Both the position numbers and the translations under genes were made by a program. This document shows, piece by piece, positions 1-57,306 of a DNA stretch of 64,000 nt; within the stretch, counting starts at the first letter, position 1, and each line of letters begins with the position of its first letter. Source of the stretch: Limnomonas spitsbergensis. Its lineage: Eukaryota; Chlorophyta; Chlorophyceae; Chlamydomonadales. The stretch lies in contig JAYJMM010000120.1 in assembly GCA_037349105.1 (NCBI GenBank), positions 2,439,001 through 2,503,000 of the forward strand, read 5' to 3'. The notes under the pieces were generated by a model. It did no database searches, was not told the origin of the DNA, and saw only the letters and a list, made by a program, of their open reading frames with translations.

Positions 1-286
1 GAAGGGATATTGAAGTGGTATACCCAAGGAGACTGGGAGTGGGGGATAAAAAGATGGGGCAGAGGGGAGAGGGGAATGGTGCTTGACGAGACGACTGACA
101 TGGAGGACTCTCAAGCATGAGGGATAAGTTTGCGGAAACAAGCCCAGCAGGGCAATAAATCGGGAAAGCCCAATAGGCCTTCAGACAAGAGTCAAGATTT
201 GTGTTCCAAGAAAGAGGACAGGGTGACTCACTGACGACACATTCAGGGGGAAACACGGTCCAGGGTTTAGCCCCTATTTTACCCAC

Positions 287-1382
287 CAACGTCCCTGTCG
301 TAGTCCTTGGCCACGTTCCCTGACGTCCACGGAATTGCATCTCCCTTGCTGTGCTCCTGCACCCTATCCGCACTGCCCACTCGCTTCAGCCAGCACTGCT
401 GTCCACACTTGGCAGGATCAGAGCACCACACCCAGATGTTGCAGCCTCGGGTGGACTGACAGGACCTGGCGGGCAAAGGTAAGGGAAGCTGGATCAGGCG
501 GGAGAGCAAGCAGGCAGGGAGACAGACAGGAAGATGTTGCAACCCAGGGTGGACTGACAGGACCTGGCGGGCAGGCGGAAAGAGTCCATCCTTGAAATCG
601 TACGACGGGTCAAGGAGAGAAAAACCTCCTCCTGCCCAGCAGGCAACTCTACGAGGTCGGCGACTGACTGCCTCACTTGCAGCATGCTGTCGCGGAGTCC
701 GTCGACAGCGCCCCACGGTTGTTGTTTGAGCTCCCAGGGGCGACGACTTGGCCCCAGTACTCGGAGTTCGCATATTGCGAGGGCAGGCCGCACTCATCTG
801 TATCCTCCCGATTGGCACGTCGGTGGATCACATCAGTGCTCCCTGCATGCCGTAAGACCACATGAGAATGGAAGCAAACAAACTATGATGATGGGCACGA
901 TATACCACTGCTCTGGCCTCACTCAAGGAGGGGTGCCGCTACATGAGTGCTGCATGCTACAACATGCAAACCATAGCCTATGATTGTAAGTCTTTGATTG
1001 CAAAAGTAGGCCATGCTGATAAGGAACCAGAAGCATGTGCATGCAACGCTGGGGATTTGAAATGGTGAGGCCATCTGCTAAGCCCCTGAAACACGACGTG
1101 CACACATTTTGAAAAGGCAAAGTATCAGCGTTAGCACCCATGCTGGCCTCGTGCCAGTGCGGTGTCGCGACACTGCCATGCAGCCCATACGGCAGACTAC
1201 CTAATCTACACTGTTCTACCGGTATTTCGGCCTGAATGGATCAGGAACTCACCAGCCTGATGAGGCGTGCTGATCCCTCTCTGGACGACGATGTACAGGA
1301 CGAAGGAGGAGACAGCGAGGACACCTAAAGTTGCAAATACTTTCCAAGACCTTACAGTTCGTTTCGGCTTAGTGAATTTCAT
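287..1382 (-). CDS. PAN/Apple-cyclophilin membrane protein, copy A (3' end off window)
   Basis: Three exons read leftward: 1253-1382, 677-842 and 287-465, each with GT-AG borders and matching phases. Exon 1 starts at the ATG ending at 1382 and encodes a short basic N-terminus then a hydrophobic stretch (VFATLGVLAVSSFVLYIVV), probably a signal anchor. Exons 2 and 3 encode a PAN/Apple-like Cys-rich module (DEC, ACCKSCQ, GCNIWVWC, CWLKR). Exon 3 is 179 nt, the same as in the complete copy at 12185-15011. Bases 1-36 on this strand match the end of intron 3 of that copy, so exon 4 (start of the cyclophilin domain) lies just outside the window. The intron before exon 3 holds a duplicated exon-start segment near 535-570. 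Function is inferred from family resemblance only. Confidence 0.7.
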
Positions 1383-24122: not shown

Positions 24123-27100
24123 GTGCAGCCTATGACTCGGCCTTGCATCATTTGCCTGTGTCTCCCATGGATCTCCATGCTACTACCGCTTCGAGTCAGC
24201 GGTGCCCCTCAGGGGCCATGCAACGCAGAGTCCCAACGATCTGAGCTGTCCCGCTTCTACAGCAGCACGCATGGCGACACATGGATTGTCAGCACCGGGT
24301 GGAGCCATGAATTGCAGACTGATAACACCACCACCACCACTGGCAGCTGCATGCCGCTGGTTGGCGCCGCCCTGCCCGACCACTGCTGCTGGCATGGCGT
24401 GACGTGTTGCAGTGTTGCGCGGTGCCAGGCGGGCATCGAGTGCAACTGCACCTATGGCCTCGTTACGTCGCTGAACCTGGGATCAAACAATGTGGGTGCC
24501 ACACTGGGATGCATACACATCGGAGTCATGCAAGGACTTGCGGGGACTGCATCAGGGCCACATACAACAAACTGCAGAGACTGCAGACCTCAATCGTCTG
24601 GAAACCCCCCTTTGCAGAGCACTTTGGGTGGGCCACTGCATCATCTGGCCTTTCAGTATCTGTCATCTTGTACAGGCATGCCGTGCTCTTAAAAAAACGA
24701 CACCTGATCTTGAGCTGTTGAAAACCGAGCCTGTCCCACAGCCCGCACTGTGTCACCGCGCCCAGGCTCACTCTGCCCAGCATTCCCTGCTCCCGACCCC
24801 TCTCCCGCCTGTCCCTGCATCCACCATCCCCTACCGATGCTTCCACAGCTGACAGTGGACCAGCCCTCCTCAGCCCTGACTTCTGGGGAGTTCGGCTGGG
24901 CCCCACTGGCGGCCACGCTATGGTGCAGCATCGAGGAGCTTGACTTGCACCAGAACCAGCTGCCAGGCTCTGTCCCCGATGACATGACCCCGCTGCTCCG
25001 GCTCAAGAGGCTCAACCTTGCTGACAACTCTCTCACCGGGACGTGAGTGCTGCACCCGCTCGCCTGATGGGGAATGCGTGCTTTGCGAAGCAGACCACAG
25101 AGAGTCAGCTATTTTTTGTAGTGAGTGGTAGACCACTATCAGCTACAGTTCAGCTACACTGTGCCCCCCAGCCACAAGCCCCTGGTCCGGCCAGCCCTGC
25201 TGCTTGGGCCGCTGGCTGGAGGCCGGTCCAGGTTTGGTGTGAATCGGCCCAGTGATGGCCGCGGGGCGGCCCAGCAAAGGTGGTCCGGTACTCACTAAAA
25301 TAAACACTGAAGAGTACATCTGGTGCATAGGTCTGTGTGCATCTTGGTATAGAATCCTGCGTCTCCGGGATGTGGATCTGGTCATCGGAAAGTCTGGCGG
25401 CTGAGCCAGGTATTGGAACCTGGTTTTAAGATTTATCAGCTTCTCCCTCGCACTTGTTTGTGCGGTCCTGTGTCTCTCTCTTCCTGTCTTCGTGTGTTTG
25501 TGGGTGTGACCCCATGTCCTGTGTTGCCCTCCTCCCGACTTTGTTTGTTTGTGTGCTCGTGGTTGACTCTGAACCCCAAACCCTGTGTTGTTCTCCTCCT
25601 ATGGTTTACAGTCTTCCCGACTCCCTGCGTGACTTGTCGGCGCTGGAGTACTTGGACCTGTCGTGGAATCATTTGACAGGTGACAGTCGAACCAGGGGTC
25701 AAACTCCTTATAGGATGCCTCAGCTACAATTTAGCTACATCACCGCCTGATGTGACGAGGGTCACAGGCGCAGCAAGCGTTGCTGCTTGGGCCGCCAGCC
25801 GAAATTTGGTCCCCATTGGCCCAGTGGTGGCCACGGGGCGGCCCCCCTGATGTGGTCTAGCGTGCAGTAAACAAACAGAGCTCTGAGGAGGCAAAAGGGT
25901 GGGGTGCTGTTATAGCCAGGTGGGAGAGGCTGCCAAATTGTCGTCCTTGGCGCTCAATACCTCTGGTAATTTCATCGTGCTCCAGCTAAAATGCAGCTGC
26001 ATGGTGGCCCTTGACCCATGGCCTCTTGCTACATGCCGTACTGCTTGGGCCACCGGCTGTAGGTCGGTGAAGGTTTGATCCCCAGACACCCAGTGGCGGC
26101 CGCCCACCCGCCTGCCAAAAGTGGCCCGGTGCGCACACAAATAGACTCTTTTGAATACCTCTGCTTATTCAGGCATGCAACTGCTGTGTTAATAAGCCGA
26201 CGCAGACTTGCAAGCGGTCCATTTGGGTCCCAGTAGGCAAGGCAAGGCAAGGCAATTGACAGGCTGTTAATTAAGAAAAAAATGAACAGCTGATCAAGCA
26301 TCTTCCTCCTCTGTCACGCTTTGACAGGCTGGCAATTCGAATATAAGTGAAGCACTGATCCAGCATCTCCCTGCCACTCAAACCTGGACGTGCTGTTTAT
26401 TTGAATATGGATGGATTTCTGATCCAACAACGTGTCCCCTCTTCCCCTGGGCAGGCTCGGTGCCTGCTAGCTTATGTGGCAATGGAGAGGGCAGCCCGCT
26501 CGTATTTCTGTTGCTGCGCAGCAACAGGCTGGATGGCAGCCTCAATATCACAGCATGCAGGAACCTCAGCTTTGTGGATGTCACAGTAGGTTTGTCAGTC
26601 ATGTGCAATAGAGCAACCCAACCTTGTACAGTTGCAAGAGGGCTAGTGGTTGGCCTGAGTGTTATGGGGGCTCGGTCTCTCACCGGCCTCTTTGCTTCCT
26701 CAGGGATGTGCACGTTTCTCTCTTTCAGGGCTGGGGGACCCAACTCCTGGACAGGTGGAAACCATTTATATTCCCCTCCCAAAAAATGTGGGTGGACCAC
26801 AGGTTGGTGTGGATGTCATGGAAAGTGTGGGAGGGCTGCAAGTAGGTGTGGGATGTCAAATTTGGGATGAACATCACTTTGTGGGATGCTCCATGTGTAG
26901 GTGTGCACAGGCTGGCTGATCCGCTGCGTCAAGACATCTTTTCTGTGGGATGTCACTGTCCGGACACTCTTCCTGTACTGCCACTGTGTCCAGACAACCT
27001 TTCGGTACTGCCACAGTGACCAGACGCCCTTTCTGTATTGCCATTGTACTGCCACTGCCTTTCAAGGCACCCTGTCTTATCTGCCATTGTCTCAAAGCAC

Positions 27101-30100
27101 CATTTTGTACTGCCGCTCACACATCACCTTTCCCATATCAACATTTGCACGTAATGCCTCATGGTCCCTATCAGGTAGCAGCCCAATCTGCCTGCTTCCC
27201 CCCCCCCTTCCCCCTCCACCCCCCTCCCTCTTCATCTGGTTCGCCCGCTTGTCATACCCCCCCCCCCCACCTCCTACTGCTCCTTTCAACATAACAGTTT
27301 GATGTCGGGCTACATCCCCCCTCTCCATCTGGTTTTCCTGCTCGTCATACCCCCCTCCCCCTTTGCTGCTCCTTTCAACAGAACAACTTCATGTCGGGCG
27401 ACATCCCCCCTCTCCAGCCGCACAACCAGCTGCTTGCCGTGCACCTCGGCCGAAACAAGTTCAAGAACATCATCAAAGGGAGTGGGATCGTAGACTTGAA
27501 CTTAGCTTACAACAAGTGAGCAGTGGCATGCAGCGTCAGTGCAACAAAAGCTCTTACATCCAGTGCGGATGTGGCTTCGGCCCCGAGCTGCGCTGCTCCC
27601 TTAACCCGCACGCCCCAGGAGGCCTTGTTTTCTTTATTTCTTTCTTTCTCTCTACAGGATGTGACCTGGAGGGGACGTGCGGGATGAGCATGACCTGCTA
27701 TCACTGCTTTGCAATCACGCGATGATTCCGAAATTTATACTGTAATTACGGCCCCTAACTGGTATGAGCAGCTGACTTCGCCTTGGAATTACGGTGGCTG
27801 AAACTCAGCTACGTAATTCGGCCACCGTAAGGATCGTCATCGACACAGCACTGGCTGCAATGCAATAGCTAGGTGTGACCCCCAACTGCCTCAAGTCGTA
27901 GAAGCTGCGGCTGGTGGTAGCCTCACCCCAAAGAGTATTATTTGTTATAATGATGTGTGCCGCATGTACCGGTATGTTGTGTTTTGCAGTGCAACAATAT
28001 GCATCACTCTGTCTCACTAAGCCTGAGAGGAGGCGACTGTCCCGTCTGTCTGCTTGTCCAGCCTGTCCCGCTTATCTCCCCTATCCCGCTGTGTCTCGCC
28101 TGTCCCGCTTATCCTGCGTGTCCCGTATGTCTCACTTGTCCCGCTTGTCCAGCCTGTCCCGCTTGTCCAGCCAGTCCCCCTTATCCTGCGTGTCCCGTAT
28201 GTCTCACTTGTCCCTCCTGTCCCGCTTGTCCCACCTGTCCCGCTTGTCCAGCCTGTCCCGCTTATCCTGCCTGTCCCGTATGTCTCACTTGTCCCTCCTG
28301 TCCCGCTTGTCCAGCCTGTCCCGCTTGTCCTGCCTGTCCCGTATGTCCCACTTGTCTCTCATGTCCCACCTGTCCCGCTTGCCCTGCCTGTCCCGTATGT
28401 CCCACTTGTCTCTCATGTCCCGCCTGTCCCTTCTGACCCCTTGTCAAGCTTGCCAAGCTGCCCTTTGAACCATGCATACACAAGAACCTGCCCGACGTGA
28501 ACATGTACATCCCTGCACCATGCTGGCGCTGCCTGAAGCCTGACTACCCCTCGCCCCTGCTGTGTACAGCTTGACCGGGTCAGTGCCCGAGGACATGACT
28601 GTGCTGCTGGCCCTCCACTCCCTCAACCTAATCAACAACAACATCACGGTGGGTAGGGCAGGGTACACACACATGCACTAAGACACATGGTACACACGCA
28701 TACACTAAGACACATGGTACACACGCATGGTACACACGCATGCACTAAGGCACATGGTACACACGCATGCACTAAGACACATGGTACACACGCATGCACT
28801 AAGACGCATGGTACACACGCATGCACTAAGACACATGGTACACACGCATGCACTAAGACACATGGTACACACGCATGCACTAAGACACATGGTACACACG
28901 CATGCACTAAGACACATGGTACACACGCATGCACTAAGACACATGGTACACACGCATGCACTAAGGCACATGGTACACACGCATGCATTAAGGCACATGG
29001 TACACACGCATGCATTAAGGCACATGGTACACACGCATGCACTAAGACGCATGGTACACACGCATGCACTAAGACGCATGGTACACACGCATGCACTAAG
29101 ACACATGGTACACACGCATGCACTAAGGCACATGGTACACACGCATGCACTAAGGCACATGGTACACACGCATGATACACACGAATGCACTAAGGTACAT
29201 GGTACACACGCATGCACTAAGACACATGGTACACACGCATGCACTAAGACACATGGTGCACACGCATGGTACACACGCATGCACTAAGACACATGGTGCA
29301 CACGCATGGTACACACACATGCACTAAGACACATGATACACACGCATGCACTAAGACACATGGTTCACACGCATGTTACACACGCATGCACTAAGACACA
29401 TGGTACACACGCATGGTACACACGCATGCACTTAGACACATGGAACACACGCATGCACTAAGACACATGGTACACACGCATGGTACACACGCATGCACTA
29501 AGACACATGGTGCACACGCATGGTACACACGCATGCACTAAGACACATGGTGCACACGTATGGTTCACACGCATGTATTAAGACACATGGTACACACGCA
29601 TGCACTAAGACACATGGTGCACATGCATGGTACACACGCATGCATCAAGACACATGGTACACACGCATGATACACACGCATGCACTAAGACACATGGTAC
29701 ACACGCATGATACACACGAATGCACTAAGGTACATGGTACACACGCATGCACTAAGACACATGGTACACACGCATGATACACACGAATGCACTAAGGTAC
29801 ATGGTACACACGCATGCACTAAGACACATGGTACACACGCATGATACACACGAATGCACCAAGGTACATGGTACACACGCATGCACTAAGACACATGGTA
29901 CACACGCATGATACACACGCATGCACTAAGGCACATGGTACACACGCATGCACTAAGGCACATGGTACACACGCATGCACTAAGACACATGGTACACACG
30001 CATGCACTAAGGCACATGGTACACACGCATGCACTAAGACACATGGTACACACGCATGCACTAAGACACATGGTACACACGCATGCACTAGAACACATGA

Positions 30101-33100
30101 TACACACGCATGCACTAAGACACATGGTACACACACATGATACACACGAATGCACTAAGGTACATGGTACACACGCATGCACTAAGACACATGGTACACA
30201 CGCATGATTCACACGAATGCACTAAGGTACATGGTACACACGCATGCACTAAGACACATGGTACACATGCATGATACACACGAATGCACTAAGGTACATG
30301 GTACAAACGCATGCACTAAGACACATGGTACACACGCATGATACACACGCATGCACTAAGACACATGGTACACACGCATGCACTAAGGCACATGGTACAC
30401 ACGCATGTATTAAGACACATGGTACACACGCATGATACACACGCATGCACTAAGGCACATGGTACACATGCATGCACTAAGACACATGGTACACACGCAT
30501 GCACTAAGGCACATGGTACACACGCATGGTACACATGCATGCAATAAGACACATGTTACACACGCATGCACTAAGACACATGGTACACACGCATGATACA
30601 CACGAATGCACTAAGACACATGGTACACACGCATGCACTAAGGCACATGGTACACACGCATGTATTAAGACACATGGTACACACGCATGATACACACGCA
30701 TGCACTAAGGCACATGGTACACACGCATGCACTAAGACACATGGTACACACGCATGCACTAAGGCACATGGTACACATGCATGGTACACACGCATGCAAT
30801 AAGACACATGGTACACACGCATGCACTAAGACACATGGTACACACGCATGCACTAAGACACATGGTACACACGCATGCAATAAGACACATGGTACACACG
30901 AATGCACTAAGACACATGGTACACACGCATGGTACACACGCATGCACTAAGACACATGGTACACCCGCATGCACTAAGGCACATGGTACACACGCATGCA
31001 CTAAGACACATGGTACACACGCATGCACTAAGACACAAGGTACACACGCATGTATTAAGACACATGGTGCACACGCATGGTACACACGCATGCACTAAGA
31101 CGCATGGTGCACACGCATGGTACACACGCATGCACTAAGACACATGGAACACACGCATGCACTAAGACACAAGGTACACACGCATGTATTAAGACACATG
31201 GTGCACACGCATGGTACACACGAATGCACTAAGACACATGGTACACACGCATGGTACACACGCATGCACTAAGGCACATGGTACACACGCATGCACTAAG
31301 ACACATGGTACACACGCATGCACTAAGGCACATGGTACACACGCATGCACTAAGACACATGGTACACACGCATGCACTAAGACACATGGTACACACGCAT
31401 GCACTAGAACACATGATACACACGCATGCACTAAGACACATGGTACACACACATGATACACACGAATGCACTAAGGTACATGGTACACACGCATGCACTA
31501 AGACACATGGTACACACGCATGATTCACACGAATGCACTAAGGTACATGGTACACACGCATGCACTAAGACACATGGTACACATGCATGATACACACGAA
31601 TGCACTAAGGTACATGGTACAAACGCATGCACTAAGACACATGGTACACACGCATGATACACACGCATGCACTAAGACACATGGTACACACGCATGCACT
31701 AAGGCACATGGTACACACGCATGTATTAAGACACATGGTACACACGCATGATACACACGCATGCACTAAGGCACATGGTACACATGCATGCACTAAGACA
31801 CATGGTACACACGCATGCACTAAGGCACATGGTACACACGCATGGTACACATGCATGCAATAAGACACATGTTACACACGCATGCACTAAGACACATGGT
31901 ACACACGCATGATACACACGAATGCACTAAGACACATGGTACACACGCATGCACTAAGGCACATGGTACACACGCATGTATTAAGACACATGGTACACAC
32001 GCATGATACACACGCATGCACTAAGGCACATGGTACACACGCATGCACTAAGACACATGGTACACACGCATGCACTAAGGCACATGGTACACACGCATGG
32101 TACACACGCATGCAATAAGACACATGGTACACACGCATGCACTAAGACACATGGTACACACGCATGCACTAAGACACATGGTACACACGCATGCAATAAG
32201 ACACATGGTACACACGAATGCACTAAGACACATGGTACACACGCATGGTACACACGCATGCACTAAGACACATGGTACACCCGCATGCACTAAGGCACAT
32301 GGTACACACGCATGCACTAAGACACATGGTACACACGCATGCACTAAGACACAAGGTACACACGCATGTATTAAGACACATGGTGCACACGCATGGTACA
32401 CACGCATGCACTAAGACGCATGGTGCACACGCATGGTACACACGCATGCACTAAGACACATGGAACACACGCATGCACTAAGACACATGGTACACACGCA
32501 TGCACTAAGGCACATGGTACACACACATGTATTAAGACACATGGTACACACGCATGGTACACACGCATGCACTAAGACACATGGTACACACGCATGCACT
32601 AAGACACATGGTACACACGCATGCACTAAGACACATGGAGCACACGCATGGTACACACGCATGGTACACACGCATGGTACACACGCATGGTACACACGCA
32701 TGCACTAAGACACATGGTACACACGCATGCACTAAGACACATGGTACACACGCATGCACTAGAACACATGATACACACGCATGCACTAGAACACATGATA
32801 CACACGCATGCACTAAGACACATGGTACACACGCATGGTACACACGCATGCACTAAGACACATGGTACACACGCATGCACTAAGACACATGGTACACACA
32901 CATGGTACACACGCATGCACTAAGACACATGGTACACACGCATGGTACACACGCATGCACTAAGGCACATGGTGCACACGCATGCACTAAGGCACATGGT
33001 ACACACGCATGCACTAGAACACATGATACACACGCATGCACTAAGACACATGGTACACACGCATGCACTAGAACATATGATACACACGCATGCACTAGAA

Positions 33101-36100
33101 CACATGATACACACGCATGCACTAAGACAGCTGCGTTGCGTCTGAAAGCATTTTCTTCAAATCCTTAGTATGCTTCCACAAGAGAGAGGCCAGGACTTGA
33201 ATCCGCCCGGGTATGTCACTCTCCTTGTTGTGTGACTGATGCAGGTGGTAGTGTTGTGCTGAAGCAGTCAGTGAAGTTGCTTCAATGCAGCTCAGGGATT
33301 CCGAATCCGATTAGGGGGGAATTTGAAAACGGGCCCCCCTGGTTGGTAGCCGCCTGCTGACGAACATTCCCTCGATGGTTAATTGAAAGACGCACCTATG
33401 GCTTGCCATCACGGCCAGAGCGACTGTGAAGCATGTATCTATGGCAATGCTGCTGTGGCCTGTATGCCACGCTGCCCCCACTCCTCTCCTGTGTTTTTTC
33501 AGGATACGCTGCCCGCTGCCGCCCTCTCTCTCCTTTCATTTGCATAGCACACAGCCCCCTTCCCTCCTGTGGTATTTGCAGGGCACCCTTCCACCCTCTC
33601 TCCTGTCAAGCGGCTCCCTCTCCTTCCTGGACATTTCCGCAAACTGGATCACGGGGTCAATTCCAGAATCCATCAGGTGAGGGCAGCGTGTATTTCAGAG
33701 CAGCTGAGAGGTGAGAGTAGCTGAGATGTGATGGCAAGTGAGAGGTGCGGGCAGCTGAGAGGTGAATGTAGCTGAGAGGTGAGAAAAGCTTAGAGGTGAA
33801 TGTAGCTGAAGAGGTGGGAGTAGCTGAGAACTGAATGTAGCTGAGAGGTGGGAGTAGCTGAGAGGTGAATGTGGCTTAGAGATGATAGTAGCTGAGAGGT
33901 GACTGTAGCTGAGAGGTGACTGCAGCTTAAATTTGAGGGGAGGCATTTGGGGGGAGGTAATTTGAGGAGATGTGGATGCAGCTGGGTTGGAAGGGCGGCT
34001 GAGGGGTTTGTACGGAGGTGTGTCTCCAGAGGCTTGAGGCCCCATCAGTGCCACAAGCTTGTCCCTGGTCATGCCAGGCATGTTGTGCACATCGCTTGGA
34101 GTTGTATGAGCTGTCGTATTTGACAGGCCCCCCGCTGCCTCCTGATGCCCCCCGCTGCCTCCTGCTGCACTGTGCTCCCCCCTGTTGCACTGCGCTGCCC
34201 CCCCACTGCCTCCTGATGCCCCACGCTGCCTCCTGCTGCACTGTGCTCCCCCCTGTTGCACTGCGCTGCCCCCCCCACTGCCTCCTGTTGCACTGCGCTG
34301 CCCCCCACTGCCTCCTGTTGCACTGCGCTGCCCCCCCGCTGCTTCCTGTTGCACTGCGCTGTCCCCCACTGCCTCCTGTTGCACTGCGCTGTCCCCCACT
34401 GCCTCCTGTTGCACTGCGCTTCCCCCCCGCTGCTTCCTGTTGCACTGCGCTGTCCCCCACTGCCTCCTGTTGCACTGCGCTGCCCCCCCGCTGCCTCCTG
34501 TTGCCCTGCGCTGTCCCCCACTGCCTCCTGTTGCCCTGCGCTGTCCCCCACTGCCTCCTGTTGCACTGCGCTGCCCCCCCGCTGCCCCCTGCCCACCACT
34601 CCCTAATCCCTGGACATCCCACATCCCCCCTTCCCTCTGCAGCCGAGCCAAGTCGCTTTCCTACATGGACTTGTCCAACAATAGCCTGGTGAGCAGCCTA
34701 GCTGTCCATCGGAGGAGGGGGGGGGGGCATGCTGGCTGACCTGTGGATGGTAGGCGGTTCTGGCTGGCATGCCAAGCTAATGCAAGCAGACCCACATGTT
34801 TATCAGGAGCCCAGTGAGATGTCTGTCTGGTTGTTTAAAAGGGGGGGGGGGGGGGGGCATGCTGACTGACCTGTGGATAGGGCCAGGTTATGTTTAATGG
34901 CTGTCTGATGCAAGCAGACCCACATATTCAAGAAGATCCTGGCGAGAGGGGCTCCTTTTCCATATGCCTCATGCCTGTAGTGTGTTGAACGAAATATCCT
35001 CCTCAGGCGGAATCCTGATCCTTTCCCATCTGTCTGTGTTGAGCTTTAATATTCTTCTCAGATGGAACCCTGATCCAGACAGAACCCTCATCCATGCCTG
35101 TGTCGAACCATGGCTGTTTACTCCTGTCCTCAATCCGCATTGAACCTAGCGCTGCTGCGACCTGTTCTCATCAGATGGGATCCTTGCCGGACGGCATGGT
35201 CAGCGTGCTTACCTCACACGGCAGCCACGTGGATCTGCGCCTCAACTACATGTCCTGCTGTGGTGTTGGCTTCGTGCACGACGCAACGTTTTCTTCTGTC
35301 GGGTGAGGGTTGAAGATTTAGGGTTCAGGGTTTTCTTTGGCGGCCGAGGGTTTAGGGTTTAGGATTCAGGGTTCATGATTTAGGGTTACGGGTTTTCTTC
35401 TATCGGGTGTGGCAGAAGCTGGTGGGTGGTGCAGGGGTCCCGTGTGCATTGCCTGCCCTCTTCAAGGCGTCTCTTCATCCACTTTCCCTCCCTCGCCCCC
35501 TGCCCTCTTTATTGAAGGACCTCCTCATCCCCTCAACCCTTCACTTGTCCCCTGCCCTCTTCATTCCCTCTGTCCCTCTCTGGCCCCCTGCCCTGCAACC
35601 TGAGCACAGCTACCAGTTGTGCAGTACAAACTCTGTCCCTCACTCGTCCCCTCATCCCCTCTGTCCCTCACTGGCCCCCTGCCCTGCAACCCCTGCCCTG
35701 CACAGCTATGAGTCGTACAACCTCTCCGCGCCGCGTCTGCCCAGCAGCCTGGCATTCTCCTCCCAGCTCAGACCGGTCAGCTTCAAACCGGAGTACCCAA
35801 ATGCAACGTGGGCGTACAACGCAGGCAACTCGTCATACACAGGCCTAAGGTACGCTCCGATGTACTGGTATGATATATTTGAATTCAAAGGCAATCGGTG
35901 CGGGTATGCACCGATGCATTACGTGTTTGAATCCGATATTTTTTAAATTCAAATATATCACACATATATACCTGCGCCGGAGGAACTGGCCAGCAGCGGG
36001 AGGGAGGGGGGGGGTATGCGCTTGCCTGCAGCAGCCTGGCCTTACCCTCTTCAGGCTGCCCCTACATGAGCATCTCCGCATTGGGCTACTCAGCTGGAAC

Positions 36101-45100: not shown

Positions 45101-48100
45101 ACGTTGTCCCCAAGTGCTTCCCCGGCTGGATCTGCTGTGATGGATCTAGCAAAGGGTGAGGACAAAGGACATCCAGAATGCAAAGACTCTGTCCCTACCG
45201 TACATGTCCCTTGACTCTGCAGTGAATAAACCTTTTTAGCCTCTGGATTGCCCACGTCAACATATGCCGCCATTTGAACGTATTTTGGAAAGAAATGTAC
45301 CGGTTGATTTTTCGCTTCTTTTGTGTCTTGCTTGTATCTTAAGTCTGACCCGTAGCTTTGTTGGCCACAAGGACGCGTGCATAGACCCGACACAGATTCC
45401 AGATTTCAAATTTCAAAAGTTCACAGTCCATGCCCGCAGTCCATGCTCCATAATAATAATAATAATAACGGCATGCCGGTTTATCACTCCACCCCCCCCC
45501 CCATCACACACACACAAACACTCACATGTTTATGAATATTGCCAGCACATCCCCATCTTCCGCCCTCCCCTTGTGCAGTCGTTTCTGACGCTGGCTTTGG
45601 CGGCCAGGTGCTCTTGTGCAACGCCACCTTCCGGTCCGTCAAGGAGATGTGCCGGGACCTGGGCAGAGTGACATGTAACGGGCTGCGGAGAGACGCGACG
45701 GACTGGTCCCTTTGGAGGTGCTTCAGGAGGTGAGGGCTGCCCGCATTCAGGTGTGCGACTGTATAATGACACCGAGGTGCAAAAAACGTATGTTTCTAAC
45801 CAATAGCCAACCGACAGGTCTCCATTGCTGACTGTTTTAGTATTTTATACTAAAATCTGATATGGTTGCAATCAGATCAAGCGAAATACTCGGTTGTCGT
45901 TTCCGTACCCCAACGAGGTGTGCAACAACCGAGTATTTCGTTTGATTGAATTGCCGGCACTTGTGTCCGCTGGGTGCGTGCCCGCATATCTCGCCTGGTC
46001 ACCTTGTTTGCTCTGTTGCAATGCTGGTCTAAGCACCATATCAACTGGCCTGCCTGCCTACTTGCCTGCCTGCCTGCCTGTCTGCCTACCAGCCTACCCC
46101 TACCTACCTGCCTATCTGCCTGTCTCCTGCCCGCCTGCCTGCCCCTACCTGCATACCCCTACCTACCTGCCTACTTGCCTGTCTACTTGCCTGTCTCATG
46201 CCTGCCTGTCTACCCCTACCTGCCTACCCTCCTGTCTGCCTGCCTGCCTCCCACCTGCCTACCTGCCTGCCCCCTGCCTTGCCTGCTTGCCCATTGCTTC
46301 CCCAGCTCCTTGCCATGGCCTGACTCCTAAGATGCTCCCCACAAACCAGCCAGTCTAAATTGGGAGGAATGTAGTCAGTGACCAATTCAGGTTGTTTTAG
46401 TGCGTACCAGACCACCTTTGAGAGGCTGCCGGGCTTCCACTGATGGGCGGGTTGGGAGCAGACCATGACCCTAAGCCCACAAAACAGGCCCCACAGTCCT
46501 CACCCTAGGGCTTCCTGCACATTGTCCTGAGGGGTACATGCAGCTTCAGGTCCCACTAGTCTCCTTGTGTGTCCCTGAAGGTTTGGGGATAAGGCTCTCC
46601 CAGAAGGCCCTGCAAAATCCGTGCACGGATACATGTCTCATCAAAAACCCCTCCGGATCCAATATCCCGTTTAAAACCCCGAAAGAGGATTTACCGCTAC
46701 GGTAGTTAGAAACTAAAAAACTACAAAGAATAAAACGGCAAAAAGGCAAAAAGGCGGCTGTTTTGACCCAATGCAGAAAAAATAGTGTTAGGGCTAGGGG
46801 GGGCTTTGTTGATAATAAAAAACCCGCCCGCGCTCAGGTCTCGCGACAAGAAGCAGGACTCAGACGCTGTTCTCTTGGACATGGGGCTCTACACCAAGAG
46901 CTTCGGGCTGCTGCCGCTGGTCCTCTCGCCGGCCCACTTCTTCCAGAAGACGGCCAAGGAGCGCCGGACGGGCCTGTCCCTGTTGACAATACCCGACAGC
47001 ACGATCAGCTTTGATGGAGAGATGTCAAAGTCTGCAGCGGTCATGCCGGGACGCAGGCTGGGCGCCAGCAGTTTTCAGGATAGGGACTCAGGTGCCGCTG
47101 ATGTGCCCGCCTCTGTCAGCACAGCCTCTGGTGCGCCCTCTGGTGCGGCCGCCACTGTCCTGGGACGCAGGCTGGGCGGCAGCATTTCTCAGATTAGGGA
47201 CCCAGGCGCCGCTGCTGTGCCTGCCTCTGCCAGCTCAACCTCTGGCGTGGCTGACGCTCCTACGTTGGGACGCCCACTGGGCGCCAGCAGTGTCCAGGTT
47301 AGCGATCCAGGCGCTGCTCCTTTGCCCACCTTCTTAAGCACCACAACCGGCGAGCCCTCCGCTCCTCCCGAAGCCTCTCCCCCCACTTCCGTTCCTCCAA
47401 AACATAGCGGTGACCGTCCATCTGCGCCTGCTGCACGGGTGGGCTGGGCTACTGTCATCGCCACGCCAGCAGGGGCACCCCTGGCGGCTGCGACGCCCAC
47501 AGCAGCAGCATCCCACCAGACGTTATCACTGCAGAAGAAAGGCTGGGCCGCGGTCTTCGCTGCTGCCAGCGCTGCCGGCGAGATGCAGTCCGAGGCATTA
47601 GAAGGGAGTGCCGAGGAGCTGCCCGACAGCAGTAGCCAGCGCTCAATGGCCACGACGACGGCGACCCGCGCCCCAGGCTTTAGTCCCTGGGGACGGGCGA
47701 GCGCCCCGGGCCTGTCCAGCGCACGGGGCCTGGCCAACGCTGGCGCCCGCGGCTTTGCGTCGGTCGGCAAGAGCCTCGTCGGCATGCTCAAATCAGCGTC
47801 GCGCTTCGCGGACGGGAAGGCCGATCTGCCCCGGTACCAGCTGCTGCAGCTGTACCAGGTGAGTGGTGTTGAGAGGGAATGATGCCCGCTGCAGGGCACG
47901 TGCCTGTACCTTTGCCTTTGCAAGAGCATGTTCCAGGGCAAGTGGTCTGCCCCGGTATCAGCTGCTGCAGCTGTACCAGGTGAGTGGTGTTGAGAGGGAA
48001 TGATGCCCGCTGCAGGGCACGTGCCTGTACCTTTGCCTTTGCAAGAGCATGTGCCAGGGCAAGTGGTCTGCCCAAGTATCAGCTGCTGCAGCTGTACCAG

Positions 48101-51100
48101 GTGAGAGGTGCGCCCGCTGCAGGGGGCATGCCTGTTCCTGTACCTGTCTACCTTTGCATGTGCATGTGATCTGCCCCAGTATCAGCTTGTGCAGCTCGAC
48201 TGGGTGAATGGGGTGATTCCTGCTGCTGGGGGGCGGGGGGGTCTGAATGCCCGTGGCTCCCATGCTTGACTGTTCTGCCTCTGTACCAACTAGTGCAGCT
48301 GTGCCAGACGAGAGGGATGCCGCCTGCTGCTGGAGGGGGGCACAGGGGCGTCTTATAGCACAACCTGAATTGCTTAAAACCTAACAATGGCAGCGGGGCC
48401 CATTTAGTCTTTTTGCCACATGGATGAGACCTATCACGAGTCCGAGGACATCTGTATCCTCAAATCCCCTCACAGGCATTGCACATGTGGGTCAACTGGG
48501 TAATGAGGGGGGCACGGGGGCGTCTTAAAGCACACCCTAGATTGTCAAATAATATGAGATATGATGTATCCCTGTCACAAGCCCCGCTTCATTCTGCACA
48601 GTCTGTGTCGCCATCAGGTTGATCTCCCTCTCTATCCTTCTACACACTCCATCTTATTCCAAGGCGTCCCTTAAAACATCATGGACAGCCTTATAAACAG
48701 TGGATGTTACTCACAGAACGCTACACGTCTCTGGGGGAGGGGAGGATGGCTGCTGTAAGGGGGGGGGTCTTCGCGCCTGGGGTATTTGAACCTCAAGTTT
48801 ATATTTTGACAAAAGAAGGGAGGGCCCCGTGGGGCCACTTACTGTCCGTGGCCCCAATTTAATCCGCAGTGTTCCAGAAGTAGCACCCATTACGTGTCCT
48901 TGTGGCTCCTCACACCACTCCTCTGCTCCTGCATCCTCTCCTCCCTGCCATTCAAGGGAAGGGGCCTGTCACCTAGGGGGCCGGACCAGTTCCCCGGCTT
49001 AAAATGCAGGGTACGCTTCCAATTGCTGTCATGAAAATATTTGCCCCATTATCAAAGGTAAAGATCAAACATCAAGCCATAGTGCTGTTTCCCTCGCTTT
49101 CTGCCGCCGTCCGAATCTGTCTGATTCTGAACACCATCGCAGGCGCTCCTGCAGGTGCACCTGGCTTGAATGCTCTGTCTGCTCCCACCTTCTGCTCCCA
49201 CCTTCACCTGCCACCCTCCTGTCGCTTGGCCTGCCGCTTGGCGTGTAGGTGCTCCTGCAGGCACACCTGGCTTGGATGCTCTGTCTGCTTCCACCTTCTC
49301 CTGCCACCCTCCTGCCACCTTCTCCTGCCACCCTCCTGCTACCTCCTGTCGCTTGGCCTGTAGGTGCTCCTGCAGGCGCACCTGGCTTGGATGCTCTGTC
49401 TGCTTCCACCTTCTCCTGCCACCCTCCTGCCACCTTCTCCTGCCACCCTCCTGCTACCTCCTGTCGCTTGGCCTGTAGGTGCTCCTGCAGGTGCACCTGG
49501 CTTGGATGCTCTGTCTGCTTCCACCTTCTCCTGCCACCCTCCTGCCACCTTCTCCTGCCACCCTCCTGCTACCTCCTGTCGCTTGGCCTGTAGGTGCTCC
49601 TGCAGGTGCACCTGGCTTGGATGCTCTGTCTGCTTCCACCTTCTCCTGCCACCCTCCTGCTACCTCCTGTCGCTTGGCCTGTAGGTGCTCCTGCAGGTGC
49701 ACCTGGCTTGAATGCTCTGTCTGCTTCCACTTTCTCCTGCCACCCTCCTGCTACCTCCTGTCGCTTGGCCTGTAGGTGCTCCTGCAGGTGCACCTGGCTT
49801 GGATGCTCTGTTTGCTTCCACCTTCTCCTGCCACCCTCCTGCTACCTCCTGTCGCTTGGCCTGTAGGTGCTCCTGCAGGTGCACCTGGCTTGGATGCCCT
49901 GTCTGCCTCCATGATCCAGAACCCGCCTTCCGTCACCCTCCTGGTCCCCTTGTTGCAGGTGATCCTGTCACCTGGCCTGTAGGTGATCCTGCACACTGCC
50001 CCTGCCGGTGCTCCTGGATTGGTAGATGAACATGTGCACAGGATCCTGACCCCACCTTCACCCGCATGTTGCCTGGCTTGCAGGTGATCCCCCCGCCGCT
50101 GCTGCCCCGTGGTCGTCTGTTTGGCAGTACCCTGGCCCTCAAGGCAGCTGAGTGGGAGCAGCTGACGCCGGCTTACTTCGACGCCCCAGGTAGGGTGCCT
50201 TGGACTGAGGGGTCAAGGTATGTTGGACTGAGGGGGTCAAGGTATGGTGGCCTGAGGGGTCAAGGTATGGTGGCCTGAGGGGTCAAGGTATGGTGGACTG
50301 AGGGGGTCAAGGTATGGTGGACTGAGGGGGTCAAGGTATGGTGGACTGAGAGGGTCAACGTATGGTGGACTGAGGGGTCAAGGTATGGTGGACTGAGGGG
50401 GTCAAGGTATGGTGGACTGAGGGGGTCAAGGTATGGTGGACTGAGGGGGTCAAGGTATGGTGGACTGAGGGGGTCAAGGTATGGTGGACTGAGGGGGTCA
50501 AGGTATGGTGGACTGAGGGGGTCAAGGTATGGTGGACTGAGGGGGTCAAGGTATGGTGGACTGAGGGGGTCAAGGTATGGTGGACTGAGGGGTCAAGGTA
50601 TGGTGGACTGAGGGGGTCAAGGTATGGTGGACTGAGGGGGTCAAGGTATGGTGGACTGAGGGGGTCAAGGTATCGTGGGGGCTTGCGCGAGGGAGGGTTG
50701 GAAGTGGCTTTGCTACACAATGAGGCTTGATAATGCCTGGCTAGGAAGAAAGTGTGGGGCTGTGAAATTAATAAATTATGCACCGGTGCCTCCTCCAACC
50801 TTGGAGTATCCCCCATGGTCGGCGTTTATTCAGCATAATGTAGCCTCATTTGAGCGTCCTCTCGATAGTCACTTGACTTCCTTTCGTTTGTTTGCTCCTT
50901 GAATGACGCTGCTTACGTTTGTTCATTGGACTTGATTCAAACACGTGCCCCCCTGACTGTTGATCCTCCCCAGCTTCCTCATGTTGCCCGATCGGCCCGG
51001 CGGACAAGATGCCGGCTGTCCAGTGGATTCCACCAGTCACGCATGCCTTCTGCAAGGTGAGCAGCAGGTCCCGCTGTATGGCATTAAGCATAGGCAACAG

Positions 51101-54100
51101 GACCCGCTGCATGGAATCAGTATACTTGTATGCGCAATTAAGCATCAAGGCCCGCTCCATGGGATCCAGCAGAAGCCACTACATACGTACCTTTTATAGG
51201 ATGTGGGTCTCATCTATTGGTGCTACCAGTGGCCGCGGCTCCCCTTGCAAACAGCGTCACAGATCCGCTGATCAGGGCTGAGCTTGCCCCAGGACTCCTG
51301 CACATCGAGATCTTTCTTTGCTGTCCCCTTTGCCCGCATTAGTTAGACAAGGGAAGTGCTTCCTGTTTTCAGCCCAGGGATTTTATGCCTTGTCTGCCCC
51401 TAGATGTGTACGCTGCGGCACTGCGCTGTGCCTGTGTTAAGACGACTCAAGGGATGCTGCCAGCAGCCTAATGGAAGCGTACAGCCCGGGCATTTGTTTT
51501 TCCTGATTTCTGCCTGTTGCCGCGCCCTGTCTTTTGTTAGGTGGACAAGGGTCTTCCTTCCATCAGCCTTTCTAAGCAGGACCTGGAGGATGTGCATGCA
51601 GAGCTGGTGGCGATGATGAACAGTGTGATGAGACAGGTGAGGGGAGGCAGGTGAGGGGAGGCGGGTGAGGGGAGACAGGTGAGGGGAGGCAGGTGAGGGG
51701 AAGCAGGTGAGGGGAGGCAGGTGAGGGGAGGCAGGTGAGGGGAGGCAGGTGAGGGAAGGCAGGTGAGGGGAGGCAGGTGAGGGGAGGCAGGTGAGGGGAG
51801 GCAGGTGAGGGGAGACAGGTGAGGGGAGACAGGTGAGGGGAGGCAGGTGAGGGGAGGCAGGTGAGGGGAGGCAGGTGAGGGGAGACATGTGAGGGGAGGC
51901 AGGTGAGGGGAGACAGGAGAGGGAAGACAGGTGAGGGGAGGCAGGTGAGGGGAGACAGGTGAGGGGAGGCAGGTGAGGGGTGACAGGTGAGGGGAGACAT
52001 GCGAGGGGAGACAGGTGAAGCGAGACAGGTGAGGGGAGACAGGTGAGGGTAGACAGATGAGGGGAGACAGGTGAGGGGAGACAGGTGAGGGGAGGTAGGT
52101 GAGGGGAGGCAGGTGAGGGGAGGCAGGTGAGGGGAGACAGGTGAGGGGAGGCAGGCGAGGGGAGGTAGGTGAGGGGAGGCAGGTGAGAGGAGGCAGGTGA
52201 GGGGAGACAGGAGAGGGGAGGCAGGGGAGGGGAGGCAGGGGAGGGGAGACAGGTGAGGGGAAGCAGGTGAGGGGAGGCAGGTGAGGGGAGGCAGGTGAGG
52301 GGAGACAGGTGAGGGGAGGCAGGTGAGGGGAGACAGGTGAGGGGAGACAGGTGAGGGGAGGCAGGTGAGGGGAGACAGGTGAGGGGAGGCAGGTGAGGGG
52401 AGACATGTGAGGGGAGGCAGGTGAGGGGAGGTAGGTGAGGGGAGACAGGTGAGGGGAGACAGGTGAGGGGAGGCAGGTGAGGGGAGACAGGTGAGGGGAG
52501 GCAGGTGAGGGGAGGTAGGTGAGGGGAGACAGGTTTGGAGAGGCAGGTGAGGGAGACAGGTGAGGGGAGGTAGGTGAGGGGAGGCAGGTGAGGGGAGACA
52601 GGTGAGGGGAGGCAGGTGAGGGGAGACAGGTGAGGGGAGGCAGGTGAGGGGAGGTAGGTGAGGGGAGGCAGGTGAGGGGAGGCAGGTGAGGGGAGACAGG
52701 AGAGGGGAGGCAGGGGAGGGGAGGCAGGTGAGAGGAGGCAGGTGAGGGGTGACAGGTGAGGGAAGACATGTGAGGGAAGACAGGTGAGGCAAGGCAGGTG
52801 AGGGGAGACAGGTGAGGGGAGGCAGGTGAGGGGAGGCAGGTTAGGGGAGACAGGTGAGGGGAGGCAGGTGAGGGGAGGTGGGGGAGGGGAGGCAGGTGAG
52901 GGGAGGCAGGTGAGGGGAGGCAGGTTAGGGGAGACAGGTGAGGGGAGGCAGGTGAGGGGAGGTAGGTGAGGGGATACAGGTTAGGGGAGGCAGGTGAGGG
53001 GAGGCAGGTGAGGGGAGGCAGGTGAGGGGAGGTAGGTGAGGGGAGGCAGGTGAGGGGAGACAGGTGAGGGGAGGCAGGGGAGGGGAGACAGGTGAGGGGA
53101 GGCAGGTGAGGGGAGGCAGGTGAGGGGAGGCAGGGGAGGGGAGGCAGGGAGGGGAGGCAGGTGGAGAGACGGGGGAAGGGAGGCGGGCGGAGTGTAGGTG
53201 GGGTCTAGGGGATTGGGTTTGCGGTCTGGGTGGCGTATGTTCTTGTAGGGGGGGGTCCCTGATGAACAGCAAGATGCGGCAGGTGAGGAATGGCGGTGCT
53301 GGATAGCGGGTGGCGAGGCGGGTGGTGGGGAGAGGCAGTGTTGGATAGCCGGGGAGGCTACTGGCTTAACGGGTGGTGGAGGTAGATGGTGGGGAGCGGC
53401 GGTATTGGATAGCGGATGGAGTGGCGGGTGGCTGGCCGGGTGGAGAGGGGATTGGCGAGGAGCGGTGGTGCTTGATAGCGTGGCGGGCTCCTGTCTTCAT
53501 GGGTGGACGGGCGGGTTGTGGGGACAGGCAATGCTTTATGTCGGGGGCTAGGTGGGTCGTTAGGTGAGTGGTGGGGACTGGGTAGAGGCGATGTTTGATA
53601 GCGGGAGGCTAGGTGGGGGAGAGACGATTTGTAGGCAGGTCAGAGTCGGGTCGGAGCTGTCATGTATGGCGGGGTTTTCGATCGAGCATCGTGTCATTGG
53701 ATGCTGGGCCTTCTGAGGCTTGGTTACACATTTTCCTGCTGATCCTGCTAATCCTGCCACCGTGGACTTTGGGGTGCATTGCCCCATGACAGATTCCCAG
53801 GAGCTACATGGTGCGTGACCAGGACGGAGAGCTCAAGTACATTGCAGCCTTTGGTAGTCCTGAGGTGAGGCCGTAGGATCAGGGAGTCGCAGGGGCCAAG
53901 ATGTATATCCAAGGCACCAGGTCGCAAGATGCAGGAGTCTAGGATTCGCAGGGGCCAAGATGTATATCCAAGGCACCAGGTCGCAAGATGCAGGAGTCTA
54001 GGAGTCGCAGGGGCCAAGATGTATATCCAAGGCACCAGGTCGCAAGATGCAGGAGTCTAGGAGTCGCAGGGGCCAAGATCTCTCCGAGGAAGCAGGACGC

Positions 54101-57100
54101 AGGAGTCAAGCAGTCCCAGGGTCCAAGATTCATCTGAGGAGCCAGGTCGCAAGATATATCTGAAGAACCAGGCCCAAGGGACCAGGGAGGGGGTCCAGGG
54201 AACTGAAGGCTGGAGCCTGAAAATCCTCCAATATCCCGGGAGCTGTTGAGGGGGATGGGTGGAAGACCCGTGACTGATGGGCGCCTTGATAAAGTATCCC
54301 AGTGATTTATGCAGGCGTGCATTTGGAGGGCACGGCTTCGAGAAGCTTATTGAATCCAGGGGGGAGAGGTCTGGCAGCTGTGTTGGAAAGGCGTTGTGTT
54401 CGAACTCTGCCCCTCATCTGTCCGAGAGGAGTGTCTCACCCCTGGCCTCCCTCTTCCGGTCCCATGCAGGCGGCCCTCACCTGGTGCTTGGCGGTGCAGG
54501 AGTGCGCCATGTACCTGTGCTGGCCCGCCTCCGTCCTGGCACATTGGGGCGGCGAGGAGCGGGGCGAGCAGGGTCAGCTGCTCTTCAGGGGGCCGAGGTA
54601 AGGAGGCATAACCTCAGGTGGGGCTGTGATGGGAGAGGTGCGAGTAGGGTCAGAGGCTGTTCAGGGGGCCGAACGGGATGAGCGTGGGGGGCAGCAAGCA
54701 TGCATTTCCAGGACCCACCCCTTGTTGACCGTGGCGGAATATCCCCTTCATCAGGATATGCATTTCCTGATGTGTTTTCATCATGCATTCATGGTGGTGG
54801 AGGTTAAGATGAGGATGAGCGAGAGGATGAGGAGGCAGGTATGATGAATGTGCATGCTTGCATTCTCCTGGGGTTGATAATCCTCGCAGTCATGGGAGGC
54901 ATGCTAGCATGTGCTGGCAATGCACCGACTGGACTGCGTTGTTTGTTTCCCCCGCCCTTGCAGGCTCAAGATGGGTGTGTGTGAGGGCGTGCCTGGCTCT
55001 GTGATGCCGGACCACATGGGCCGGGCAGACTACCACGGCACAGGCGTCAACCAGGCGGCCAGGTTCATGGATGCAGGTGCGAGGGAGTTCGCAGTGTTTG
55101 CTGTTGCTGCTGCTGTTGCTCATATGCTCATGCACATGCTTATGCTTGTCCAGCTTGACCCGCTAGTTCAACGCCTTTTCCATCCCTATCTCTCGCGCGT
55201 CCTGTCTTGTCCTTTTCATTGTTCTGGCAGTTCTCATGGTTGTAATCACAAACACATGGTTCTCAATTTTTGTTTCTTCTCACTGTGCTCTTTAGTTCGC
55301 GTTGTTCACACATGAATCTTTTTTCCCTCCCTGTCCGCTATTCCCACACCGGTTGCTTGGTACAACATTGGACCTCCAACCTGGCTATCATATTTGAAAT
55401 GCAATACTTCTTCATTGTAACAGTCCCCCACTCCTCGGTGCGCTACCCACTGACGGGCCAGTCCTTGCGCGTTACATAATTTTCTCATTCCTGTCATTGT
55501 TCTTGATTCATTGAAATTTGCATCATTTTTCTTGTTCTCACTGTCCTCACAACCCCATTGCGTCATCTGCGTTGCAATCCTCATTGTTCTCATGCTTGTC
55601 CCCAGCGGCCCATGGCGGCCAGCTTGCCTGTGAGGAGGACCTGATGGTGCGCGTGTTCAGCAGCTGGGACTTGAACAGCAGAGTTGCCGGCAACGCAGCA
55701 GCGGCAACCGCAGCTGCTGGTGATGACGGAGAAGAAGAGGAAGACGATGAGCCTCCCATCACGCTGGTCCTACCAGCACATGTCCTGGCTGGATTGAACA
55801 GCCCTCGGCTCAACATCCTTCGGCTGCCAACGCTTCAAGAGGCAGACCCTGGCGAAGTGAGTCACAGCCCTCCGTCTACACGGCCCCCTCCACACACACA
55901 CACACTCATGACATTGGATTGGTGCCCACGTTTGCTTGTGCTTTTGTTACCTGCCTACAAGAAAATGCCACCTATTTTTTCTCCTGTGCCTTCCAGGAGG
56001 TTCCCAAGCTGGAACAGCCGCTGGAAAGGGAGCACCGACAAATGCTCCTCAAGGCTGACATCGCAATAGAGATGACGCCCGCAGAAGCGCCTGCTTCAGG
56101 GCGCGGGCCGCAGGGGTCAGACATGGCCTCTGCTGGACTTGAGAAGCAGGCCACTGCACTCGATTCGAGACAAAGCTCTGAGCCGCCTAGCTCCTTGACT
56201 GTTGAGTCCACTGCCTGTCCTAGGTCTGGGGGGAGGACAGAAGAGGACCTGAAAGCTGGCGGGCCCTTCGCTTTTCTCCGTGCCGGATCCGCCGGGCCCA
56301 ACCGGTCTGGAGGGAGGACAGATGAGGACCTGAAAGCTGGCGGGCCCTTGGCTCCTCTCCGTGCCGGATCCGCCGGGCCCAACCTGCCTCCGATTGCTGC
56401 GCCAGCCTCCCTGCTTGGCAAGCCGCAGCAGGCTTCTCAAAGGCCATGCGAAGACCTCCCAAACGGATGTGCCGACTTCCAAGCTCCCCACCCATCTGCC
56501 AGGGTGTCGCTGCAGCCCAGTGGAAGCCTTGTCGGCAGGTCGCGCCTGCCGGCCTGTAGCACGATGGAGGGTGACGAGGGTGTGGAAGCTGCGGTCGCCT
56601 TCAGGCTGGGCAGCTACAGGTGGGCTCTCAGGGGTGGGGGCGTCAGGAGTGTGAATATAATAGCCTTGTGGTCACACTCGCTCAATGATCGATATCAGAA
56701 GCGGTGTTTACTAGCTGTGATGCCTCCTCCAGGCAGAGGCGGCGTTTTAGAATGGGGACTTTTGCGGACCTTGTGACCAGCATGAGATTTGTGTGGCTGC
56801 AGGTTCAAAGGCTCCAGTGAGGCGCTGTCCATGGTGCACGTCTCAACGGCATCTCTGGCAGGACGCAGGTGAGGGTTAAGGTTTAAGGCTTATTCTGGTG
56901 GGAATGGGATGAGATGCGGGCACTGTGATGCTGTCATAAGGATATCATGCTGGAGGTCTGACTGTTGGCGCAAACCTCCAGAGGACTAGTATACTCTACC
57001 AGACGAGCTACGAAGATTCCCATGACAATGTCTGTTACTCTGATGGGCAGGTCGCATGGTTCCCACCTCACTGGTATGCATTATGGTGCCCCTCCCCCCC

Positions 57101-57306: not shown

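Follow-up and report, generated by a model that had tools for sequence, protein, structure and literature searches.

The 64,000 nucleotides analysed here (hereafter the window) come from the green alga Limnomonas spitsbergensis (GenBank assembly GCA_037349105.1, contig JAYJMM010000120.1, positions 2,439,001 to 2,503,000 of the forward strand). Our subject is a gene of the window that resembles leucine-rich repeat (LRR) receptor guanylate/adenylate cyclases, hereafter the cyclase gene, and the tandem arrays found in its introns. Some of these arrays contain an exon border in their repeat unit, and we have weighed whether the position of such border copies calls for a process directed at splice junctions.

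The cyclase gene and its arrays

The 31 exons of the cyclase gene join into a single open frame of 1905 codons plus a stop codon. Its 30 introns comprise 29 of the GT-AG type and one of the GC-AG type; the latter is intron 17, whose donor at position 42041 is the only non-GT donor of the gene. The predicted protein has LRR_1, LRR_8 and Guanylate_cyc domains according to Pfam. Homologues, which include proteins of Chlamydomonas eustigma, Haematococcus lacustris and Dunaliella tertiolecta, align across the joins around exons 12 to 17 and exons 21 to 28, in the transmembrane and cyclase regions. Since the joined frame is open and homologues match across the joins, the gene coordinates proposed in an initial annotation of this DNA are right. 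Intron numbers in this work follow our own numbering, which may differ from that of the initial annotation.

Arrays detected with Tandem Repeats Finder (TRF) make up 45% of the intron sequence of the cyclase gene, and they cover 1.7% of the window outside it. Their copies lie head to tail with units of about 10-200 bp, as in minisatellites. Border copies can be read by eye in introns 4, 9, 13, 14, 15, 18, 21, 24 and 26, and most copies run from the exon on into the intron; in other words, an existing junction has been copied. In intron 14, GTGA is kept in all ten in-register decoy copies of the donor, and GTGAGC in nine of the ten. Reading the exon on to a decoy adds stop codons in each of the three decoys tested in intron 14, and in the single one tested in intron 21. 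The coordinates of these and other features are collected in Table 1. No RNA genes that might cause the pattern were detected when the window was scanned with Rfam and for tRNAs.

The initial annotation had listed introns 4, 7, 12-19, 22, 23 and 25 as carrying repeats with a border in the unit. This description holds for introns 4, 13, 14, 15 and 18 and, weakly, for intron 16. It does not hold for introns 7, 19, 22 and 25, where the array begins 11-31 bp inside the intron (25 bp in intron 7), nor for intron 12, with its two exon bases.

Duplications were also detected inside exons. They are in frame in the three exons that hold one (21, 114/105 and 81 bp), and thus fit the selection filter that one would expect.

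Table 1. Positions of the cyclase gene, its arrays and duplications, and other repeats of the window
Feature	Position	Strand	Description
LRR-receptor guanylate/adenylate cyclase-like gene	24132..57306	+	31 exons, 1905 codons; hosts most arrays of the window
Intron 4 acceptor array	27226..27416	+	89 bp x 2.1; 35 exon bases in unit
Intron 6 giant 27-bp minisatellite	28658..33129	+	begins ~9-13 bp past donor; without border
Intron 9 donor array	35288..35373	+	41 bp x 2.1; 15 exon bases
Intron 12 G-rich arrays	36796..37083	+	32-34 bp; begin at donor, just 2 exon bases
Intron 13 donor	37990..38112	+	exon end and donor copied 92 bp downstream
Intron 14 donor array	38943..39555	+	58 bp x 10.6; 23 exon bases
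Intron 15 acceptor array	40353..41122	+	~72 bp; TRF 8.7 copies at 40377-41011; 18 exon bases
Intron 16 acceptor-side array	41763..41995	+	65 bp; 11 exon bases; weak
Intron 18 acceptor duplication	43150..43352	+	~95-103 bp; 23 exon bases; within 8-bp repeats
Intron 19 array	44057..44769	+	103 bp x 6.9; fails donor-spanning tests; begins 31 bp inside intron
Exon 21 tandem duplication	47048..47326	+	in frame; spacing 114/105 bp
Intron 21 donor array	47825..48110	+	121 bp x 2.4; 34 exon bases
Intron 21 acceptor-side array	49198..49911	+	91/115 bp; stops 172 bp short of acceptor; acceptor-like copies degenerate
Intron 22 array	50201..50678	+	24 bp x 20; begins 11 bp past donor
Intron 24 donor array	51630..53163	+	14 bp x 110; 7 exon bases
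Intron 25 array	53883..54079	+	59 bp x 3.3; begins 18 bp past donor; without border
Intron 26 donor-side duplication	54545..54672	+	74-76 bp; copy ends at exon border
Exon 29 tandem duplication	56223..56384	+	in frame; 81 bp x 2
PAN-cyclophilin acceptor array	13237..13635	+	109 bp x 3.7; 3 intronic copies plus exon
PAN paralogue	284..611	-	same acceptor in 2 copies, 96 bp apart
Dispersed repeat copies	5331-5472, 7072-7165, 11313-11505, 12807-12931, 18049-18136, 19468-19591, 25182-25309, 25960-26123, 58513-58649, 59077-59173		

Border copies and random placement

The association of repeats with borders was examined in four ways. Except in the first, expected numbers come from a random-placement null, in which the same units are dropped anywhere into the gene with its introns collapsed for repeats. 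The outcome can be summarized as follows:

(i). In the shuffle test a border is compared with shuffled sequence, and matches on the intron side are counted too. With such matches included, 21 of the 60 cyclase borders reach p ≤ 0.002. Among them, the donors of introns 7, 12, 22 and 25 (p = 0.002) owe their score mostly to the intron side, with 8-12 exon positions aligned. Introns 17 and 23, both on the list of the initial annotation, stand out in this test only (donor 17, p = 0.02; acceptor 23, p = 0.004). Shuffled sequence is, however, the wrong null, since arrays are abundant in these introns.

(ii). In the two-sided point test the border must sit inside the repeated unit. The donors of introns 4, 9, 13, 14, 16, 21 and 24 and the acceptors of introns 4, 6, 8, 12, 15, 16 and 21 pass, which amounts to 14 of the 60 cyclase borders. 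The donors of introns 7, 12, 19, 22 and 25 fail, and so do the acceptor of intron 18, where the copy has a gap, and the donor of intron 26, where the copy ends at the border.

(iii). In the TRF array test, non-exonic arrays of the cyclase gene (n = 34) are counted if they span a border by at least 7 exon bases. Five do so against 4.3 expected (P = 0.44), and significance was reached in none of 14 settings (P 0.26-0.65).

(iv). In the event test, duplication events outside exons are taken from self-alignment (24 in the cyclase gene, 38 over 56 introns). The unit contains a border in 8 of the 24 cyclase events: the acceptors of introns 4, 9, 15, 16 and 18 and the donors of introns 14, 21 and 26. 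Before correction of unit lengths, the expected numbers were 6.9 for the 8 of 24 in the cyclase gene and 11.1 for the 12 of 38 overall. These expectations are too high because BLAST gave multiples of short units, and they were replaced by a test with TRF-corrected lengths, a correction that may overshoot slightly, as intron 18 was assigned an 8-bp unit.

A strict ungapped detector, which splits arrays and misses degenerate border copies, found 3 border events against 5.2 expected in the cyclase gene, and 4 of 63 against 8.4 overall.

Tandem duplication in other genes and at other loci

TRF arrays with a score of at least 100 cover 22.1% of 180 kb, sampled as 18 random stretches of 10 kb (range 0-50%) with a unit limit of 500 bp. 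In the published account of this genome, Table 2 gives 0.10% for satellites and 22.78% for unclassified interspersed repeats (PMC11228838). Comparison of the latter value with our 22.1% leads us to suggest that much of the unclassified class may consist of minisatellite arrays.

For the random stretches, exons were derived from coding scores and joins from position weight matrices (PWM). We kept the 15 joins that could be recognised as parts of conserved proteins and dropped the rest as unproven; for intron 1 of TIC110 the second-ranked PWM join was used. The set comprises introns of RPL3 (2), FtsH (2), MPG (1), myosin (4), VTC (3), RlmN (1) and TIC110 (2). Pfam matches above the cut-off support VTC, myosin and MPG; the AAA match of FtsH lies below the cut-off, and the latter gene, like RPL3, RlmN and TIC110, carries the name we presume to be correct.

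Duplicated acceptors are found in VTC introns 1 and 2 (102 and 182 bp, with 52 and, by eye, ~30 exon bases) and in myosin introns 2 and 4 (106 and 194 bp, with 59 and 11 exon bases). The 182-bp duplication of VTC intron 2 and a donor match in myosin intron 1 pass the point test and fail the event criteria. Four of the five border duplications in these genes are at acceptors. Other cyclase genes show the same phenomenon. One on contig C119 (locus L006) has a 125-bp array in which an exon start of ~85 bp occurs six times, five of the copies being preceded by AG; another (L028) has a donor duplicated over 158 bp. Within the window, the PAN-cyclophilin gene carries the 109-bp repeat with an acceptor that the initial annotation had described. 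Border copies in VTC, myosin, PAN-cyclophilin and other cyclases, together with an array cover of 22%, indicate that tandem duplication is genome-wide. The initial annotation had proposed a genome-wide process that lengthens introns and multiplies copies of splice sites, and in this regard it is supported.

The arrays themselves bear traces of how they grew. In the PAN paralogues the intronic copies share changes that are absent from the exon, and their copy number differs (2 versus 4). The decoys of cyclase introns 14 and 15 likewise share changes absent from the exon. Such shared changes show that the border was captured once and that the intronic copy was amplified thereafter. Copy number also varies between L003 and L005, two cyclase paralogues that are 95% identical over 2311 bp: an 81-bp array, not among the border-spanning arrays shown here, has 10.4 copies in one and 7.5 in the other. 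When three array units were searched in the genome, all matched their home locus or an adjacent paralogue only; the units of the intron 15 acceptor and intron 21 donor arrays matched nowhere but at their own locus. In relatives, the intron 15 site measures ~150 and 195 bp (by eye) versus 840 bp here, and the intron 25 site ~195 and 185 bp versus 605 bp, a comparison biased to short introns as the relatives were found as read-through open frames.

Additional repeats and gene clusters were observed. One of the random stretches (L023; C113:1500001-1510000) scored 0% arrays; its open reading frames reappear four times at intervals of 2679 bp, on both strands, and the resulting tandem repeat of ~2.68 kb exceeds the TRF limit of 500 bp, hence the score. 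On contig C20, 12 cyclase-domain matches lie on one strand between ~232900 and 276900, ~3.4-5.8 kb apart, and 11 of the 12 have one in-frame TGA: they mark a cluster of cyclase genes, or pseudogenes, in tandem. A scan of viral contigs for relatives found none. In the window, PAN/cyclophilin-like pieces at 231-575 (-), 10187-10993 (+) and 13237-15010 (+), 78-88% identical where aligned, form a local gene duplication cluster. A dispersed repeat of ~80-165 bp, present in both orientations with 69-77% identity in aligned pairs (Table 1), has the appearance of an ancient interspersed element with no relation to the tandem arrays.

Origin of the border copies and known systems

We consider it probable that the border copies arise from local tandem duplication, that is, from the birth and growth of minisatellites, which would act at a very high rate throughout the genome and here in an intron-dense gene, without machinery that targets junctions. 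The process might be envisaged as follows:

(i). Segments of ~10-150 bp would duplicate in tandem, to a first approximation regardless of location, as the placement tests suggest. Slippage or unequal exchange may be the molecular cause.

(ii). Before expansion, introns would have been ~540 bp long, and simulation predicts that between one fifth and one quarter of the events would then include a border by chance. Introns are just a few times longer than the units, and for this reason a spare exon border is present in many of the copies.

(iii). A duplication that spans a border would be tolerated, since its outermost copy would leave a complete exon with its own splice site in place, at the first donor or at the last acceptor.

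(iv). The captured piece of exon drifts as intron, and the array grows by copying of the intronic unit, as the changes shared among decoys and the copy numbers of paralogues (2 versus 4, and 10.4 versus 7.5) show.

(v). Any mild excess at borders may be an effect of detection. Such an excess is partly expected, because a duplicated exon piece presumably faces an exon that hardly changes and would stay recognisable for longer than a pair of intronic copies.

The outcome would be introns of greater length with numerous decoy splice sites, and no machinery directed at junctions would be needed.

Several observations weigh against this reading. In the point test, 14 cyclase borders are duplicated against 7.7 expected (binomial P = 0.018; bootstrap ratio 1.8, 1.1-2.6), and pooling with the other genes gives 19 of 90 against 13.8 (P = 0.086). 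In the corrected event test the 8 of 24 cyclase events face 4.2 expected (P = 0.038) and the 12 of 38 events over all 56 introns face 7.6 (P = 0.053); for units of at least 50 bp alone, the count is 11 of 22 with 5.7 expected (P = 0.011). In three further cyclase introns, 3 of 6 borders are duplicated; they remain from six paralogue pairs tried, of which L003, L029 and L030 were dropped for lack of a convincing join, and L006 enters no count. Array starts also crowd at cyclase donors, 11 of 34 lying within 35 bp of a donor against 3.7 expected (P = 0.00075). Lastly, genes differ strongly: in eIF4A-III, which lies in the same window, none of 16 borders is duplicated, and 7 of 154 intronic points fall within duplications.

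The border counts would be explained if exon borders were moderately preferred for tandem duplication, up to about twofold, in a manner linked to transcription or to the sequence of splice sites. The excess in the point and event tests and in the three further cyclase introns speaks for such a preference; the TRF array test and the ungapped detector speak against it. So do the genes other than the cyclase, with 5 of 30 borders duplicated against 6.1 expected (15 introns of 7 conserved genes) and 4 of 14 events against 3.4 (P = 0.47). Moreover, slower decay of exon copies could alone yield a mild excess. We therefore regard a preference for borders as unlikely. Altogether, random placement accounts for between half and all of the border events; a residual excess of up to about twofold is possible but not established, and may either be real or reflect the longer life of recognisable exon copies. 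The assertion of the initial annotation that random minisatellites would strike exon borders less frequently than observed is only weakly supported. Its view that repeats occur at borders beyond chance is sustained against shuffled sequence, whereas the comparison with random placement is mixed.

Donor crowding raises another alternative. Transcription through splice-site regions might seed arrays in a strand-polar manner, G-rich at donors and C-rich toward acceptors, hit borders up to twice as frequently as chance, and drive both intron growth and the build-up of decoys throughout the genome. This proposal seems to us slightly less likely than a plain border preference. In a narrower version, which we find more doubtful still, the G-rich 5' end of the intron would be prone to co-transcriptional R-loops or slippage, and arrays born there would take up the donor. 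Several features of the cyclase gene are in line with these ideas. The crowding is seen in all 14 settings (P 0.0005-0.026) and has no counterpart at acceptors (3 starts against 3.7 expected among the 34 arrays); the GC skew of arrays decreases along the intron toward the acceptor (rho -0.62, P = 1e-4, n = 34); and AGGT is present in the unit of 8 of 11 donor-near arrays versus 5 of 23 others. In other genes the skew declines likewise at a score of 70 (rho -0.71, P = 0.004, n = 14), with rho -0.33 (P = 0.35, n = 10) at a score of 100. However, intron ends free of arrays have the same skew, if weaker, so that the skew of the arrays may be a mere amplification of local composition, and the context skew of donors with and without arrays shows no clear difference (P = 0.089). 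Donor crowding was not repeated in the 15 introns of the 7 other genes (2 starts against 1.55, a comparison of low power), where border duplications are in any case mainly at acceptors. The suggestion of breaks or slippage at AGGT-type sites or R-loops, made in the initial annotation, keeps partial support from the array starts of the cyclase gene, a signal that the 15 other introns did not repeat.

It is very improbable that these introns were made by introner-like mobile elements or by intron gain through tandem duplication of exonic segments with AGGT. The units are not dispersed in the three cases searched, and in this respect they do not behave as introners. Most copies include intron sequence at one end, as expected if an existing junction was copied, and introns 15, 16 and 25 have counterparts at the same places in relatives. 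The only candidate is intron 26 (54598-54963), which holds a copy of the end of exon 26 stopping at the border, and which is absent in two relatives (P0011 and P0015) that read through intron 25. It may represent a lineage-specific intron gain; the sequence past the copy has, however, no significant match to exon 27 (P = 0.81).

Tandem arrays are in general prone to error in assemblies, and this one was built from PacBio continuous long reads (CLR). An artefact, with arrays mis-collapsed or falsely expanded, is nevertheless just as improbable, as copies differ in patterned ways, arrays are common to paralogues, and, with the exception of intron 6, no cyclase array reaches 1.6 kb, while the reported CLR reads have an L50 of ~33 kb at 63x (PMC11228838).

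A striking pattern of repeats at junctions can largely arise where tandem duplication is frequent, introns are short and the splicing machinery is tolerant, and the cyclase gene suggests one route to long introns in this algal group. Two loci offer a natural test bed: intron 14, with eleven near-identical donors in a row, and the cyclase on contig C119, where ~85 bp of one and the same exon start recur behind each of five AG acceptors. Long-read RNA on such loci could reveal the rule by which the spliceosome chooses among equal sites.

The best reading is that minisatellite-type duplication is pervasive and is tolerated at borders, and comparable repeats have already been published. The statement of the initial annotation that no named system of this kind is known is answered in part by two such reports. 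In human paralogues, internal tandem repeats (minisatellites) at exon-intron boundaries have been described that modify introns (PMC2812944). The likeness extends to units at the border, differences in copy number between paralogues, changed introns, and coding copies that are mostly in frame. In the human cases the repeats belong to recent segmental duplicates, and transcripts show that splicing is altered, whereas ours concerns a green alga with dense arrays known from sequence alone. In Chlamydomonas reinhardtii and Volvox carteri, members of the same algal order, tandem repeats are densest in introns and commoner near intron-exon junctions (PMC3887541), a distribution with the same excess toward intron ends; the account given there counts repeats by position, without describing units that contain an exon border, as units do here.

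Tandem duplication of splice-site sequence is also a standard model of intron gain (PMC3443670, PMC4974935, PMC2891723). As set out in these sources, the duplication takes in splice-site sequence and usable copies of GT and AG arise, as in the cyclase gene. In that model, however, a new intron is derived from duplicated exonic sequence, while here existing introns are lengthened. Introners, as portrayed in PMC9860276, are likewise intron-associated repeats with splice sites; they form dispersed families, whereas the three units searched in this genome are local.

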